Source: Massilibacillus massiliensis (GTDB lineage Bacteria; Bacillota; Negativicutes; FLKF01). From it: DNA of 64,000 bases. The translations under genes were made by a program, and so were the position numbers. Below, in pieces: positions 147-33,737 of this stretch. The DNA is taken from the NCBI RefSeq assembly GCF_900086705.1, contig NZ_LT575483.1, positions 3,329,533-3,393,532 of the forward strand, given 5' to 3'. Every line of letters starts with the position of its first letter. Position 1 is the first letter of the stretch. Below the pieces are notes generated by a model that ran no database searches, was not told the origin of the DNA, and worked only from the letters and a program-made list of their open reading frames with translations.

Positions 147-3081
<2,935 letters not shown>

Positions 3082-3293
3082 AAGTAGAGAACAGGAACTT
3101 GAGAAAGTTCCTAGTGAATCACTTTAGTTCGAGCGAAGTGAGAAGATACCAAAGCCGTGGCTTAGTCGAATAAGACGAAGTCAGAGGCCGTGGTAGATGA
3201 ATTTTGACGAATAGAGTGAAGAAGAAACTAAAATGCAAGAATTCATACAAAAATAAAACTTCTGTATAGTTTTCAGAGAATAACTCTGAAGAA
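3082..3293 (+). other. 23S-5S spacer
   Basis: About 210 bases without a gene. It holds small stems (for example CACTT...GAAGTG around 3121-3142 and CAGAG...CTCTG around 3274-3288) and a 7-base repeat GCCGTGG at about 3153 and 3187. These are probably rRNA processing structures. No tRNA is seen. Confidence 0.6.
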
Positions 3294-3410
3294 TCTGGTG
3301 ACGACAGCTATAAGGATCCACCTGTTCCCATACCGAACACAGTAGTTAAGCCTATAAACGCCGAAAGTACTTGGGTGGAAACGCCCTGGGAGGATAGGTA
3401 GTTGCCAGTT
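3294..3410 (+). rRNA. 5S ribosomal RNA, copy 1
   Basis: About 117 nt. It contains the conserved 5S core GGATCCACCTGTTCCCATAC and CCGAACACAGTAGTTAAGC. Helix I pairs CTGGTGAC (3295-3302) with GTTGCCAG (3401-3408). It lies in the normal place downstream of 23S. A second, different 5S gene follows after only about four bases. Confidence 0.95.
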
Positions 3411-3414
3411 TATA

Positions 3415-3531
3415 TCCAGTGATGATGCCTAAGTGGATCCACCTGTTCCCATACCGAACACAGTAGTTAAGCACTTAGAGGCCAAGGATACTTGGGTGGA
3501 AACGCCCTGGGAAAGTCGGTAATTGCTGGTT
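3415..3531 (+). rRNA. 5S ribosomal RNA, copy 2 (divergent tandem copy)
   Basis: A second complete 5S gene starting about 4 nt after the first. The loop B/C core is identical, but helix I (CCAGTGAT / ATTGCTGG) and the helix II strands (CTAAGTGG / CACTTAG) differ from copy 1 in a way that keeps pairing. No terminator or promoter fits between the copies, so both must come from one precursor. Confidence 0.92.
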
Positions 3532-3540
3532 AAGTAAGAT

Positions 3541-3573
3541 AAAAAAGACTCGACATTAGTCGGGTCTTTTTTG
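3541..3573 (+). terminator. rRNA operon intrinsic terminator
   Basis: Stem AAAAAGACTCGAC / GTCGGGTCTTTTT with loop ATTA, ending in a T run. It sits nine bases after the second 5S gene. Confidence 0.93.
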
Positions 3574-3575
3574 CG

Positions 3576-3755
3576 TGTAGAATAAACCATGGACAGATAG
3601 GCAGCGGGTCGGTGAGAAGCACTCATCTGCGTCGTTACAGTAAGGTGCTGCTCGCCCTAGTACAGAAGTACGACTCCTTCACAACTCCTTACTGTGCCTA
3701 GCATCTGAGCACTTCTCACCAACCGGCAACCTATCTTCGTACTAGCTTATAAGTG
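3576..3755. repeat. Palindromic intergenic repeat element, copy A
   Basis: The outer left part (about 3587-3624) and right part (about 3709-3754) are inverted repeats of each other (GATAGGnnGCnGGTnGGTGAGAAG). A second stem lies inside (TTACAGTAAGG / CCTTACTGTG). The right part read on the minus strand matches 23104-23148 with about four differences over 44 bases. The left part matches the complement of 23145-23182. No ORF is carried. This looks like a non-autonomous MITE/REP-type element. Confidence 0.75.
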
Positions 3756-3773
3756 ATATGAATTGCGTTTATT

Positions 3774-5588
3774 TTAGTTGTAATTTTTTATAACAAAATT
3801 ATTTTGCCAGGTTTTTTTACAAATTTTTTTAATTTCGGCTGCTTTGGCAGCTAATTTTTTGCTGGTAATATTTTTTTCATTTACGACTACTACTGCTAAT
3901 GAAATCGTCATTAATGGAAAATTTTCGATTTTATCTGAACGATTTTTGGCAGTTACGTAGCCTTGGTGTTGATGTTCTTCGGAGTAAAAAGTTTTTGATT
4001 CTTTTGCAAATTCGTCAATGATATTTTGGCAGAGGGCTTCCGTACTTATGGTTGGCGAGAATATAATGAAATCGTCTCCACCAATGTGTCCAAGAAAATA
4101 TTCGTGCGAACTGCCTTTCAAACATCGTGAAAGTAGGTTTGCTGTACTTGCCAGCACAGTATCACCGGCATCAAATCCATAAACGTCATTGTAGATTTTG
4201 AAGTTATCTAAATCTATATAAATCGCACTGAAAGGAATGAGAGAATTAATATAGCGATTTGATTCCCAATCAATGATCTGATTGCCTGGTAATCCTGTTA
4301 ATGGATTTGCATGTTTTGCGCGATTTAGTTCGATTTTGGTTGTGAGTTCTAGTAATGCTTTAATTGTTGTTATTCCGAAATATTCATTGTTTTTGGTGAT
4401 GATGATTGAATCATAAATATGATCAGAGTTTCGTGCCATCGCTGCTTTGGTAGCTTGCTCTACGGGGGTCGTGTAATCCAAAATCAAAGGATTGGTATTA
4501 ATTAATAATTTTACGGGGCGATTGCTATAGATAGACATGCCATAATTGGTTGCTAAATTACTGAGAAAAAATTCTCTGCTGATAATTCCTATAGGACGGT
4601 TTTCATCTACGATGATGATATCCATATGATCATGTTTATTATGTAAGTAAGCTAAAATTTCTTTCCCTAATGTTGAAGATGTAAAATAGACTTGTCTTGT
4701 TGCTATTTCACTGATTGGTGTACTTAATCGAGTATTGATTGCATATTCTTCTTTTTTTAGGTAAGCTTTTTTTATAAAATCTTTTAAAGGGTCTTCTATT
4801 TTAGTAAACTTTGCTTTAGGCCTACTTAGATAGAACCCTTGTCCATATTGTACGCCTAATTGAATTAAAGTGAGTAGTTCATCTTCCGTTTCAATACCTT
4901 CAGCAATGATCGTCATATTCGTTGCATGAGAAAGATCAACTAAAGCTTTGACAATCGCCTGCTTAATTTTATCGAGGTGAATGCTTTGTATGAGTTCTAT
5001 ATCAATTTTTATGAAGTGAGGTGATGTTTTTGCTAATAAAGTTAAGCCAGAGTATCCTGAACCGACATCATCCAATGCAATACGATAACCTTGTTTACGA
5101 TAATGATCTAAGATGGCACAGAAATTTGTATAATCATCAATGGCTGTTTTTTCAGTAATTTCAAAGATGATATTATCACTGTTTAATTGATGCTTTTCTA
5201 AAAGTTTTTTTGTTGTTCCTTGATGGAAGTGTTTATCATAAAGTATTTTTGGATCAACATTTAGAAATAGTAATTGGTTTTTAAGAATTTTTTTAGCGGT
5301 GGTAATTGCGGTTTTACGGCACAGATAATCTAATTTCCACGACTTGTTATTTTCTGCGGCAGTTTTAAATAATTTTTCTGGATTGGCTAGAATACTATCA
5401 GCAGGTCCGCGACTAAGTGCTTCATAGCCAAGAATAGCTCCATCTCTTAGGCTGACGATAGGTTGAAATACTGAAGTAATCAATTGATTGGCAATGATTT
5501 TATCAAGTTCTTTTAAATAGTTAGAAGACAAATCATTTAGCTCCTTGTCATTTATATTGATATAATAACTATAGCAACGCATCTTCAT
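3774..5588 (-). CDS. EAL-CBS-GGDEF cyclic-di-GMP signalling protein
   Basis: A 604-aa soluble protein with EAL (about 35-260), a CBS pair (about 290-415) and GGDEF (about 425-600). The EAL residues look complete: E56 in GYEALSR, N110, E143, D173-D174 in LDDVGSGYS, K194, E230 and Q250, so phosphodiesterase activity is likely. The cyclase signature reads GGDDF (503-507) instead of GGDEF, so cyclase activity is doubtful. The CBS pair may sense adenine nucleotides. ATG 5588 has no good SD. An in-frame TTG at 5531 (residue 20) has AAGGAG nine bases upstream and may be the true start. It is monocistronic, on the minus strand between the rRNA operon and cdd. Confidence 0.9.
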   Translation of the reverse strand: MKMRCYSYYININDKELNDLSSNYLKELDKIIANQLITSVFQPIVSLRDGAILGYEALSRGPADSILANPEKLFKTAAENNKSWKLDYLCRKTAITTAKKILKNQLLFLNVDPKILYDKHFHQGTTKKLLEKHQLNSDNIIFEITEKTAIDDYTNFCAILDHYRKQGYRIALDDVGSGYSGLTLLAKTSPHFIKIDIELIQSIHLDKIKQAIVKALVDLSHATNMTIIAEGIETEDELLTLIQLGVQYGQGFYLSRPKAKFTKIEDPLKDFIKKAYLKKEEYAINTRLSTPISEIATRQVYFTSSTLGKEILAYLHNKHDHMDIIIVDENRPIGIISREFFLSNLATNYGMSIYSNRPVKLLINTNPLILDYTTPVEQATKAAMARNSDHIYDSIIITKNNEYFGITTIKALLELTTKIELNRAKHANPLTGLPGNQIIDWESNRYINSLIPFSAIYIDLDNFKIYNDVYGFDAGDTVLASTANLLSRCLKGSSHEYFLGHIGGDDFIIFSPTISTEALCQNIIDEFAKESKTFYSEEHQHQGYVTAKNRSDKIENFPLMTISLAVVVVNEKNITSKKLAAKAAEIKKICKKTWQNNFVIKNYN

Positions 5589-28504: not shown

Positions 28505-28755
28505 ATGAGAAATAGAGAAATGTGTTGATCGGGAAAGTAGGTGAACTTTCTCCTGCAGAGAGGTACTATAATAGCTGAAATTAGTACTAGGAAGAAAGCC
28601 ATTCGAAATGCACCCGGGAGCAGTTTAGCTGAATTTATAGTAGGCTAAAACGGTAGCAGCCGTTATCTGTATTGAGTGAGGTAAATCTATGGATTTATCT
28701 AAACAGAGTGGAACCACGGGCCATCGTCTCTGTCAAGAGATGATGGTCTTTTTCT
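28505..28755 (+). promoter_or_regulatory. T-box riboswitch, predicted cysteine-specific
   Basis: Leader of cysE-cysS. Stem I is around 28505-28630. The specifier TGC (28609-28611, in GAAATGCACC) fits tRNA-Cys. The T-box core AGAGTGGAACCACGGG is at 28705-28720, and a terminator CCATCGTCTCTG...AGAGATGATGG with a T run is at 28721-28755. Uncharged tRNA-Cys should block the terminator and switch the operon on. Confidence 0.9.
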
Positions 28756-29538: not shown

Positions 29539-30961
29539 TACTTTAACAAGGCAAAAAGAAGCGTTTGTGCCGCAGGTTCCCGGAGAAGCCAGTATCTATG
29601 TCTGTGGTGTTACACCTTATAATCATCCTCATATAGGAAATGCAAGGCCATTTATTACTTGGGATGTAATTAAACGATATTTAAGAAAATCAGGCTATAA
29701 AGTGAAACATGTGCAGAATTTTACCGATGTAGATGATAAAATTATTCGCACAGCAAATCAGGAAGGGGTAAAATGGTCAGCTATTTCTGAGCGCTATATG
29801 AATGCTTACTTTGAAGTAATGGATCAATTGAATGTAGAACGCGCAGATGTATATCCAAGAGTCTCCGAACATATGGATGATATTATCTCAATGATTGCAA
29901 CTCTGGTGAAAAAAGGATATGCTTACGAACTTGAAGGTGATGTCTATTACAGCGTAGAGAAATTTTCTGATTATGGAAAATTAAGCGGCAGAAAACTTGA
30001 GGATATGCAAGCCGGTGCTAGAGTTAATGTAGACGAACGTAAACAAAATCCTATGGATTTCGCTCTTTGGAAGAGTGCAAAGCCTGGCGAACCCGCATGG
30101 AAAAGTCCATGGGGAGAAGGTCGCCCTGGTTGGCATATTGAATGCTCGGCAATGTCGCTGAAATATTTAGGAGAGACTTTCGATTTTCATGGGGGCGGTA
30201 GTGATCTTATTTTTCCACATCATGAAAATGAAATTGCGCAATCCGAAGCCTGTTGCGGAAAGTCAAATTCTTTTGTGAAATATTGGCTTCATAATGGGTT
30301 TATTACAATCAATGAAGAAAAAATGAGCAAGTCATTAAATAATTTCTTCACGGTATTAGATATATTAAAGCAATATCCGGCAGAAGTGTTAAGATTTTTT
30401 ATTGTAGAAACGCATTATCGCAGTCCGCTTGATTTTAGTGATGCACGTTTAAATGAAGCTGCTCGCAGTTTAGAACGATTGAGAACAGCGATGTTAAATT
30501 CTATAGCTTTAGATCAGTATGAAGCAGGAGCTGAAAGTGACTTGTCGGCAGCACTCCAGAACTTTGCAAAAAAGGCTGAAACAGATTTTTGCTTGGCAAT
30601 GGATGATGATTTTAATACAGCATTGGCATTAAGTAGTATGTTCGCACTAGCAAAAGAAATCAATGTGTATTATCATGCAGTTACGACTGGAAAAGTTGCA
30701 CATGATACAAACGCCTTTTCTATTGCACGGAAAGTATATGAAGAAATGGCGAATATTTTGGGAATTTTAGTAGATGTACGTTCACAGGAAAGCGAGGAAG
30801 ATGAAGAAGTGGTAGAAGATTTAATGAAAATTATTATTGAACTTCGTCAACAAGCGCGAAGTTCAAAAGATTGGGCTACTGCCGACAAAATTCGTGATCA
30901 GTTGCATGAAATCGGTATAACTTTAGAAGATTCACCTACAGGCGTTAGGTGGAAAAAATAA
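29522..30961 (+). CDS. cysS: Cysteinyl-tRNA synthetase
   Basis: A 479-aa class I synthetase. HIGH-type motif [14 protein letters not shown] motif [10 protein letters not shown]; zinc ligands in [18 protein letters not shown] and [18 protein letters not shown] lies 14 bases before ATG, inside cysE, so it is coupled to cysE and shares its T-box. It is followed at once by mrnC (TAATG). Confidence 0.97.
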
Positions 30962-31446
30962 TGAATTTTGACCATTTCAAATTTTTAGTCGATAGTGTTT
31001 TTCAGTGTGATGAAGCAGGCGCGGTGAAACAAAACTATAAAGAAATCCGAGTAGAATCACTCAATCCTCTCGTTCTTGCTTACATTGGTGATGCTTATTT
31101 CAACTTGTATGTACGCGGGAAACTTTTGGCTTATGAACAAAATAAAGTGCAAGTGCTGCATCGTTTTGGCGCACAGATTGTCTCCGCAACTTGGCAATCT
31201 ATTGCTTATCATGGGATTGAATCCTTGTTGACAGAAGATGAGAAATCTATATTTCGTCGAGGTCGCAATGCCAAAAGTCATGTGCCAAAAAGTGCGACTG
31301 TTGCTGAATATCGGGCAAGTACGGGCTTTGAGGCGCTATTAGGCGCACTTTATTTACAAAAAAAATATGAACGGCTTTATGAGTTGGTAGATAGAGCATT
31401 TGATATTATTTCCTCAGAAATGATGCAGAAGACCAAAATAAAGTAG
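30961..31446 (+). CDS. mrnC: Mini-ribonuclease III
   Basis: A 161-aa RNase III catalytic domain without the dsRNA-binding domain. It trims 23S rRNA precursor ends. The signature AYIGDAYFNLYVR contains the catalytic Asp, and GFEALLGALYL holds the second acidic residue. ATG 30961 overlaps the last base of the cysS stop and has AGGTGG upstream. Confidence 0.94.
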   Translation: MNFDHFKFLVDSVFQCDEAGAVKQNYKEIRVESLNPLVLAYIGDAYFNLYVRGKLLAYEQNKVQVLHRFGAQIVSATWQSIAYHGIESLLTEDEKSIFRRGRNAKSHVPKSATVAEYRASTGFEALLGALYLQKKYERLYELVDRAFDIISSEMMQKTKIK

Positions 31447-31500: not shown

Positions 31501-31604
31501 CCGAACAAGAGAAAGTGCAGATACTTATTGCAAATTTTAAGTAATGCAGCGGCTGTTTATTGCAATTTGATAATCTATAGATCCATAAATGGAGAGTGAA
31601 TGAA

Positions 31605-32942
31605 ATGAAGATTGCTCAATTTGAAGCAACAGGTATAGATAAAGTGGAACATTTCTTTGAATTGAATGACATCAATTCTTTATCGGAACGTGAATTGTGC
31701 TGCTTTTTAAAAGCGTGTAATATTTCTTTTATATTAGAAGGGATTAATCGAATACAAAGTACTTTAATCTGTGAGCTGAAAGATTCTTATGTACAGCAAA
31801 GTCAACGCTATGTAACCTTAAACTTGGAATCGTATCTTTTGCCTAGCTTGGAAGAAAATGATGAAAAAAAAGCACAAGAACTTACGATGGAAGCGTTTGC
31901 ATTGTATACGAATATGTCAAGGTTAAAAGATGGTGAGTTTAAAGGGCGCCCTAAACGGACAAATTATTTATACGGAATTCCAATTGAAGATGCAAGGTAT
32001 ATTTTACCTTTAGGAACAAAAACGAATGTTTGTGTTGCCATGGCTGGAGACAAATTAGTTCAGTTGTTTCAATTGTTGACGAATCCGCAGTATGGAGAAT
32101 TATTTACAACAATACTGGATCAATTTAAATTGTATTTACCTAAGCGGATGTTTCAATTATTAATGCAACAAACAATTTATACGGACAAAACATTGATGGA
32201 TAATTTTTATCAAATGTATTTTGATCGGATCGACGCGGCCGAAAATTTAATTTTATTAGATCAATTTAGTGAACTTGATATGAAAGTTGGTTTTGGTGCG
32301 ATGACAAGCACCATGAAAATTACCCCGTCGGAAGCGATTGCAAAGTGGGGCGAAGAAGCGCCAACTAAGGCAAAAGGTGTAGTGAAACGCGTTTTAAGTT
32401 ATGGGCATACAAGCATTGCTGAACAAGCTAGAACTACATTCGGAATGATGTGTAGTCTTGTTACATATCATCAGCAATTAAGGCACAGAATCACTACGAA
32501 TTATCGTGAGAATTTAAATGTGGTTTTACACGATCAACAGCGTGAAGTCATCATACCAGAGACGATTAGAGAATCTAACTTTTGTGAAGAATATAAGAGA
32601 CTCGTCGAGCGATTCAGAAGTTTTCGTAAAATGGTTGCAGAAAAATATGGTACAGATAAAGCCTTACCTTTCTTGTTGAATTGTGATCAGATAAAACTCA
32701 TTATTTCTGCAAACGCACGTGCTGATATATCTATGCTGGCAGATCGTACCTGTATGAATGCGCAGTGGGAAATTCGTGAGTTGGCGGTCAAGAAAGTGAT
32801 GATTCTTCGAAAGTTATCACCTGAATTGTATGAGAAAGCATTACCATCGTGTGTATTAGGAAGCTGTCGTGAAGGGAAAATGACCTGTGGACAAGCTGGA
32901 AAAATGCGCGAAAAGTTTTTAAATTTAGAGCAAATCAAATAA
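31605..32942 (+). CDS. Tandem-domain ThyX-like flavin-dependent thymidylate synthase
   Basis: 445 aa, about twice the usual ThyX length (220-250). The first half keeps SQRY (66-69) and DARYILPLGTKT (129-140), but the position of the RHR motif reads CEL. The second half keeps GHTS (267-270), RHR (293-295), NAR (370-372) and AQWEI (386-390), but its SxRY position reads NLNV. Each half thus lacks what the other retains. ThyX sites are built at subunit interfaces, so a fused pseudo-dimer with composite sites is plausible. The C-terminus has three Cys (SCVLGSC, MTCG). ATG 31605 has GGAGAG eight bases upstream. It lies between mrnC and rlmB. Confidence 0.85.
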   Translation: MKIAQFEATGIDKVEHFFELNDINSLSERELCCFLKACNISFILEGINRIQSTLICELKDSYVQQSQRYVTLNLESYLLPSLEENDEKKAQELTMEAFALYTNMSRLKDGEFKGRPKRTNYLYGIPIEDARYILPLGTKTNVCVAMAGDKLVQLFQLLTNPQYGELFTTILDQFKLYLPKRMFQLLMQQTIYTDKTLMDNFYQMYFDRIDAAENLILLDQFSELDMKVGFGAMTSTMKITPSEAIAKWGEEAPTKAKGVVKRVLSYGHTSIAEQARTTFGMMCSLVTYHQQLRHRITTNYRENLNVVLHDQQREVIIPETIRESNFCEEYKRLVERFRSFRKMVAEKYGTDKALPFLLNCDQIKLIISANARADISMLADRTCMNAQWEIRELAVKKVMILRKLSPELYEKALPSCVLGSCREGKMTCGQAGKMREKFLNLEQIK

Positions 32943-32957
32943 CAGGAGAGAAATGAT

Positions 32958-33737
32958 ATGAAGCAAAAACAACTCCCACAGCAAGAAATATCAGATGAAA
33001 TTATCTTTGGTCGTAATAGCGTAATGGAAGCGTTAAAAAGTGGACGTTCTATCAATAAAATTTTATTGGCAAAAGGAGAAAAACAAGGCTCTATAAAAGA
33101 AGTGATTGGGCTTGCAAAGGAAAAACGTATCATTCTGCAAGAGGTTGAAATAAACAAGCTCGATATGATTGTAAAAGGGCTGAAACATCAAGGCGTGATC
33201 GCGTATGGTGCACCGGTGGATTATGTGGAGATCGAAGACATTTTACAAAGAGCAAGTGATCTTGGACAGCCTCCGTTCATTGTATTATTAGATGAATTAG
33301 AGGATCCACATAATTTAGGAGCAATTTTGCGGACTGCAGATGCAGCTGGCGTACATGGTGTACTTATTCCTAAAAGAAGGAGTTGTCCATTATCGGCAAC
33401 TGTAGCAAAAACTTCTGCTGGTGCAGTAGAATATGTACCTGTAGCGCGTATTGGCAATATCGCACAAACGATTAAGGAACTAAAAAAAATGGGCATGTGG
33501 GTTGTTGGTGCAGATATGGATGGAGAGAAGAATTATTATGAAGCGGATCTGACGGGGGCGTTAGTTCTTATTATTGGCGGAGAAGGAAAAGGAATTAGTC
33601 GCTTGACAAAAGAGCAATGTGACTTTTTAGTGAAGATTCCGATGTCCGGTAAAATCAATTCCTTAAATGCATCGGTTGCAGGGTCAGTCTTAATGTTTGA
33701 GTCATTAAAACAGCGTATGCTAAAAGTAAATAAATAA
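32958..33737 (+). CDS. rlmB: 23S rRNA 2'-O-methyltransferase, TrmH/SpoU family
   Basis: 259 aa. An N-terminal substrate-binding domain (about 1-90) precedes the SPOUT knot domain with the three SpoU motifs: DELEDPHNLGAILRTADAAG, IIGGEGKGISRLT and KIPMSGKINSLNASVAGSVLMFE. It probably methylates G2251 of 23S rRNA. SD GGAGAG. It is probably co-transcribed with thyX, 15 bases away. Confidence 0.93.
   Translation: MKQKQLPQQEISDEIIFGRNSVMEALKSGRSINKILLAKGEKQGSIKEVIGLAKEKRIILQEVEINKLDMIVKGLKHQGVIAYGAPVDYVEIEDILQRASDLGQPPFIVLLDELEDPHNLGAILRTADAAGVHGVLIPKRRSCPLSATVAKTSAGAVEYVPVARIGNIAQTIKELKKMGMWVVGADMDGEKNYYEADLTGALVLIIGGEGKGISRLTKEQCDFLVKIPMSGKINSLNASVAGSVLMFESLKQRMLKVNK

Follow-up and report, generated by a model that had tools for sequence, protein, structure and literature searches.

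A double-length ThyX of Bacillota with FAD- and dUMP-binding residues divided between its two halves

The thyX locus and its neighbours

The window analysed here, a stretch of 64,000 nucleotides from Massilibacillus massiliensis, carries an intact open reading frame for a double-length ThyX (Table 1). A GGAG sequence precedes its ATG, which we number as residue 1, and an alternative in-frame GTG start lies at 31596. The local gene order is ispD-ispF-gltX-cysE-cysS-mrnC-thyX-rlmB, with neighbours named from their translations and from the established gene order of Bacillota. A T-box leader (28516–28734) is present upstream of cysE-cysS. The closest named relative of the protein comes from a Massilibacillus metagenome-assembled genome (73% identity); the genus, renamed Anaerosinus, belongs to the Negativicutes according to NCBI.

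Table 1 Features of the two-domain thyX locus (window positions; residues counted from the ATG)
Feature	Position	Strand	Remarks
mrnC	30949..31446	+	Upstream neighbour, conserved; translation and synteny
Two-domain thyX ORF	31605..32942	+	445 aa, ATG at 31605, two Thy1 matches
N-half, residues 1–205	31605..32219	+	ThyX fold (sequence and model), predicted 'subunit C' role
Arg49	31749..31751	+	M. tuberculosis Arg87 (dUMP); R in 25/25 readable N-halves, L/M/F in C-halves
CEL 56–58, N-half	31770..31778	+	At the RHR position in the alignment of halves
QQSQRY 64–69, N-half	31794..31811	+	dUMP-binding Ser66 and Arg68; lid Tyr69
EDAR 128–131, N-half	31986..31997	+	Arg131 = T. maritima Arg147 (T. maritima residue numbers in the alignment of halves include a 12-residue tag)
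C-half, residues 213–445	32241..32939	+	ThyX fold, predicted 'subunit A' and 'subunit B' roles
GHTS 267–270, C-half	32403..32414	+	Ser270 = M. tuberculosis Ser71 (FAD, subunit B)
RHR 293–295	32481..32489	+	FAD and dUMP, subunit A; in 27/27 readable C-halves
NYRENLNV, C-half	32499..32522	+	At the QQSQRYV position; SxRY lost
NAR 370–372, C-half	32712..32720	+	Arg372 = M. tuberculosis Arg190 (FAD, subunit B)
Arg381, C-half	32745..32747	+	M. tuberculosis Arg199 (dUMP, subunit A)
rlmB (SpoU-type methyltransferase)	32958..33737	+	Downstream neighbour, conserved; translation and synteny

Family membership and fold of the two halves

The initial annotation had read the protein as a ThyX of twice the usual length, which proved correct: the N-half scored 55.3 bits and the C-half 89.2 bits against Pfam PF02511 (Thy1), both above the curated gathering cut-off of 24.8 bits. 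The whole protein passed NCBIfam TIGR02170 narrowly, with 89.6 bits against a cut-off of 87.9. In a search of 28 half sequences with a profile built on 30 single ThyX sequences, the halves from the window gave E values of about 4e-16 (N-half) and 3e-36 (C-half). The N-halves of 27 of the 28 loci searched in this way matched the profile at E ≤ 1e-10, the exception being L069, which contains just the post-intron part.

An AlphaFold2 model of the N-half (residues 1–212, 44 aligned sequences) had a mean pLDDT of 80. Its best VIA-align matches in the PDB were ThyX chains (Z 9.1–11.2), with PolB, a related UMP methylase, among the top matches and unrelated chains from Z 3.7 down. Because the alignment contained single ThyX sequences, the model is partly circular and depends on the profile evidence. 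A full-length AlphaFold2 model, for which the alignment consisted of the window protein, L027 and L028 alone, reached a pLDDT of 40 and was discarded. Judged by its Thy1 score, its profile E value and the structure matches of its model, the N-half is a ThyX fold, and the early reservation that it might not be ThyX-like was not borne out.

Near the C terminus, C416, C421 and C428 (32850–32891) form a C-x4-C..EGK..CG pattern, conserved in C-halves, in single ThyX of the same class and in many viral ThyX, that could be a putative metal site.

Partition of the active-site residues

Canonical ThyX (FDTS; T. maritima TM0449, M. tuberculosis Rv2754c), which resembles the double in fold, FAD- and dUMP-binding residues and family profiles, has one fold of ~210–270 aa per chain, a contiguous RHR-x7-S motif and a homotetrameric assembly with four identical sites. 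The double instead has two folds in 445 aa and the contiguous motif in neither half, RHR being confined to the C-half and SxRY to the N-half. As initially described, the N-half keeps SQRY and LPLGTKT, with CEL in place of RHR, and the C-half keeps GHTS, RHR, NAR and AQWEI (386–390) and has lost SxRY. Beyond these motifs, we found that the N-half also retains Arg49 and Arg131, and the C-half Arg381.

In M. tuberculosis ThyX, subunit A gives RHR95–97 and Arg199, subunit B gives Ser71 and Arg190, and subunit C gives Arg87, the Gln103 backbone, Ser105, Arg107 and the lid residue Tyr108 (PMC6514825). Each of these published FAD and dUMP residues occurs once per chain of the double, divided between the halves. 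Ser66, Arg68 and Tyr69 correspond to Ser105, Arg107 and Tyr108. Every N-half that could be read has the subunit C residues (25 sequences at Arg87, 27 at the remaining positions), and the C-halves have lost them. The subunit A residues and Arg190 were each found in 27 of 27 readable C-halves and Ser71 in 27 of 28, one C-half having Ala there; N-halves have lost these A and B residues, apart from 3 of 25 with an isolated Arg in the last place of RHR and one with Ser where Ser71 aligns. The EDAR arginine is likewise kept in 27/27 readable N-halves, the C-halves having mostly L, R or M. Alignment of the residues thus shows that the split matches the published subunit roles, with the A and B roles falling to the C-half and the C role to the N-half. 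An independent inhibitor structure, in which one monomer supplies Gln75 and Arg182 and another supplies Ser88 and residue 89 (PMC3498832), agrees with this split.

The loss pattern is common to all sequences readable at each site, bar a few stray residues. Its recurrence at 28 homologous loci in 27 genomes shows that it is not due to chance. Along the chain, the kept sites run in the order GHxS (C-half), Arg87 (N-half), RHR (C-half), SxRY (N-half) and NxR/Arg199 (C-half); kept positions therefore interleave, and the pattern is not a truncation of one half. Among 78 columns near-invariant in single ThyX, 29 are kept in the C-half only and 20 in the N-half only; the two halves share 2, and 27 are lost from both.

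Distribution and origin

The double form, for which the initial annotation had proposed a survey, was found at 28 loci in 27 distinct Bacillota genomes of at least three classes. It was present in 5 of 380 genomes of the class, in 11 of 348 sampled from the phylum, in 10 of 83 from the class of G694 and in 11 of 46 from the class of G581; one scan of genome contigs yielded two loci only. The Negativicutes doubles cluster together in a full-length tree (support 91/92). In one genome (G004), locus L022 is a second, more divergent ThyX beside the usual one. In another (G552, locus L170), a group II intron at about 1186–3854, matching Rfam RF02004 and RF00029 and encoding a 614-aa ORF of reverse-transcriptase type, splits the double thyX directly after the EDAR codons. 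On viral contigs (L070, L071, L084–L163) the ThyX frames examined were all single-domain, and phage and plasmid records contained no match with 80% query coverage.

In a motif scan, 14 of 17 loci showed an mrnC-like motif, an rlmB-like motif or both next to the double, with both present in 10; the bases available for the remaining 3 contained neither. Single ThyX genes of the same class have the same neighbours, mrnC and rlmB, in most loci scanned, and the single ThyX of related Bacillota occupies the gene slot of the double, a pattern that favours replacement or in situ evolution.

In trees of the separated halves, the N-halves and the C-halves were each set apart by a branch with support of 100, suggesting a single origin of the fusion; the branches are very long. 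An approximately unbiased (AU) test did not reject N-halves and C-halves as one clade (p = 0.44). Since the test neither rejects nor demonstrates sister halves, internal duplication stands as a hypothesis alongside the joining of two ThyX genes. The initial proposal of a division of labour after internal duplication was thus supported as to the division; the duplication did not gain support from the separate clades, long branches and AU result.

Activity and alternative explanations

No ThyA match was found in any of 23 genomes bearing the double. Each of the 23 had exactly two Thy1 matches, both from the double, so that the Thy1 search revealed no further ThyX. The search for salvage, which covered thymidine kinase, gave matches in 7 of the 23, strong only in G015 and G552, and none in the genome of the window. 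Because the double is the sole synthase found in 23/23 genomes and no thymidine kinase was matched in the window's genome, we conclude from gene content that it is very probably active as a thymidylate synthase.

Half-degenerate motifs could hint at decay, and one might read the gene as a pseudogene, a frameshift or an assembly artefact. That reading is refuted by the conservation of the double, which is a single open frame in almost all homologues across 27 genomes, with both halves under purifying selection (dN/dS ~0.02–0.21 in pairs without saturation); we assign it a negligible probability. Abandonment of thymidylate synthesis in favour of another flavin or nucleotide reaction would fit the splitting of the contiguous RHR-x7-S signature, and PolB, a UMP/dUMP methylase, has the same fold. 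Such a change of function is nonetheless very improbable, given that every published FAD and dUMP residue is present once in the chain, that no other thymidylate synthase was found in the 23 genomes and that the window's genome gave no thymidine kinase match. It is also very improbable that the C-half is catalytic on its own and the N-half a stabilising or regulatory leftover. In favour of this reading, RHR and the FAD residues lie in the C-half, which also has the higher Pfam score, and in most pairs the N-half shows somewhat faster evolution, but the C-half lacks all five dUMP-side residues of the partner subunit (Arg87, Gln103, Ser105, Arg107 and Tyr108), and exactly these are retained by the N-half in all readable sequences.

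We consider it highly likely that the double is a working flavin-dependent thymidylate synthase in which the two ThyX folds of each chain share one set of active-site residues. The division of labour and composite sites proposed in the initial annotation are strongly supported by the published subunit roles and the status of the double as sole synthase.

Proposed architecture

Two chains would pair into a four-fold assembly resembling the ThyX tetramer. The C-halves would meet at the bound FAD, one giving RHR and the other GHxS and NAR, and one N-half would close each site, with Arg49, Ser66, Arg68 and Tyr69 surrounding dUMP, so that a complete site would consist of two C-halves and one N-half. 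Under 222 symmetry and the published roles, the sole arrangement expected to give complete sites places C-halves at A and B and N-halves at C and D; the FAD-A and FAD-B sites would work, and FAD-C and FAD-D could not. Any other placement of two halves of each kind gives the B role to an N-half. The homodimer, with its two chains, would thus have two complete and two dead sites, in contrast to the four identical sites of canonical ThyX. On sequence grounds, each half seems to require the other for function. The chemistry would be that of ordinary ThyX, with transfer of the methylene of CH2-H4folate to dUMP via FAD and NADPH as reductant. We regard it as a rather unlikely, tentative idea that the dead pseudo-sites, where an RHR-less N-half faces an SxRY-less C-half, have become available for another function, such as that of an allosteric nucleotide or flavin site, in an obligate pseudo-heterotetramer.

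Discussion

Chlamydial ThyX is about twice the normal length; our search of the open-licence literature found no paper stating this. That search yielded one mention of a duplicated ThyX, a 'domain duplication' noted in Chloroflexi in 2009 as uncharacterised (Valas and Bourne, PMC3224940), and no analysis of a residue split. As with the double, the Chloroflexi 'domain duplication' occurs in genomes with ThyX as the only thymidylate synthase; the comparison is by description only, and the part of that paper available to us describes no residue partition. The doubled architecture is therefore not new, and the complementary partition of residues appears to be. T. thermophilus Thy1 (6j61) is also an enlarged ThyX; it has 242–270 aa, and, going by entry title and length only, its extra C-terminal domain is not a second ThyX fold.

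ThyX is under study as an antibacterial target. Because three identical subunits share each site, it is difficult to tell apart what each of them contributes. In the double, these roles are separated into distinguishable halves, and each role could be mutated alone. The protein would also be a clear case in which reciprocal degeneration locks an enzyme into a larger architecture.
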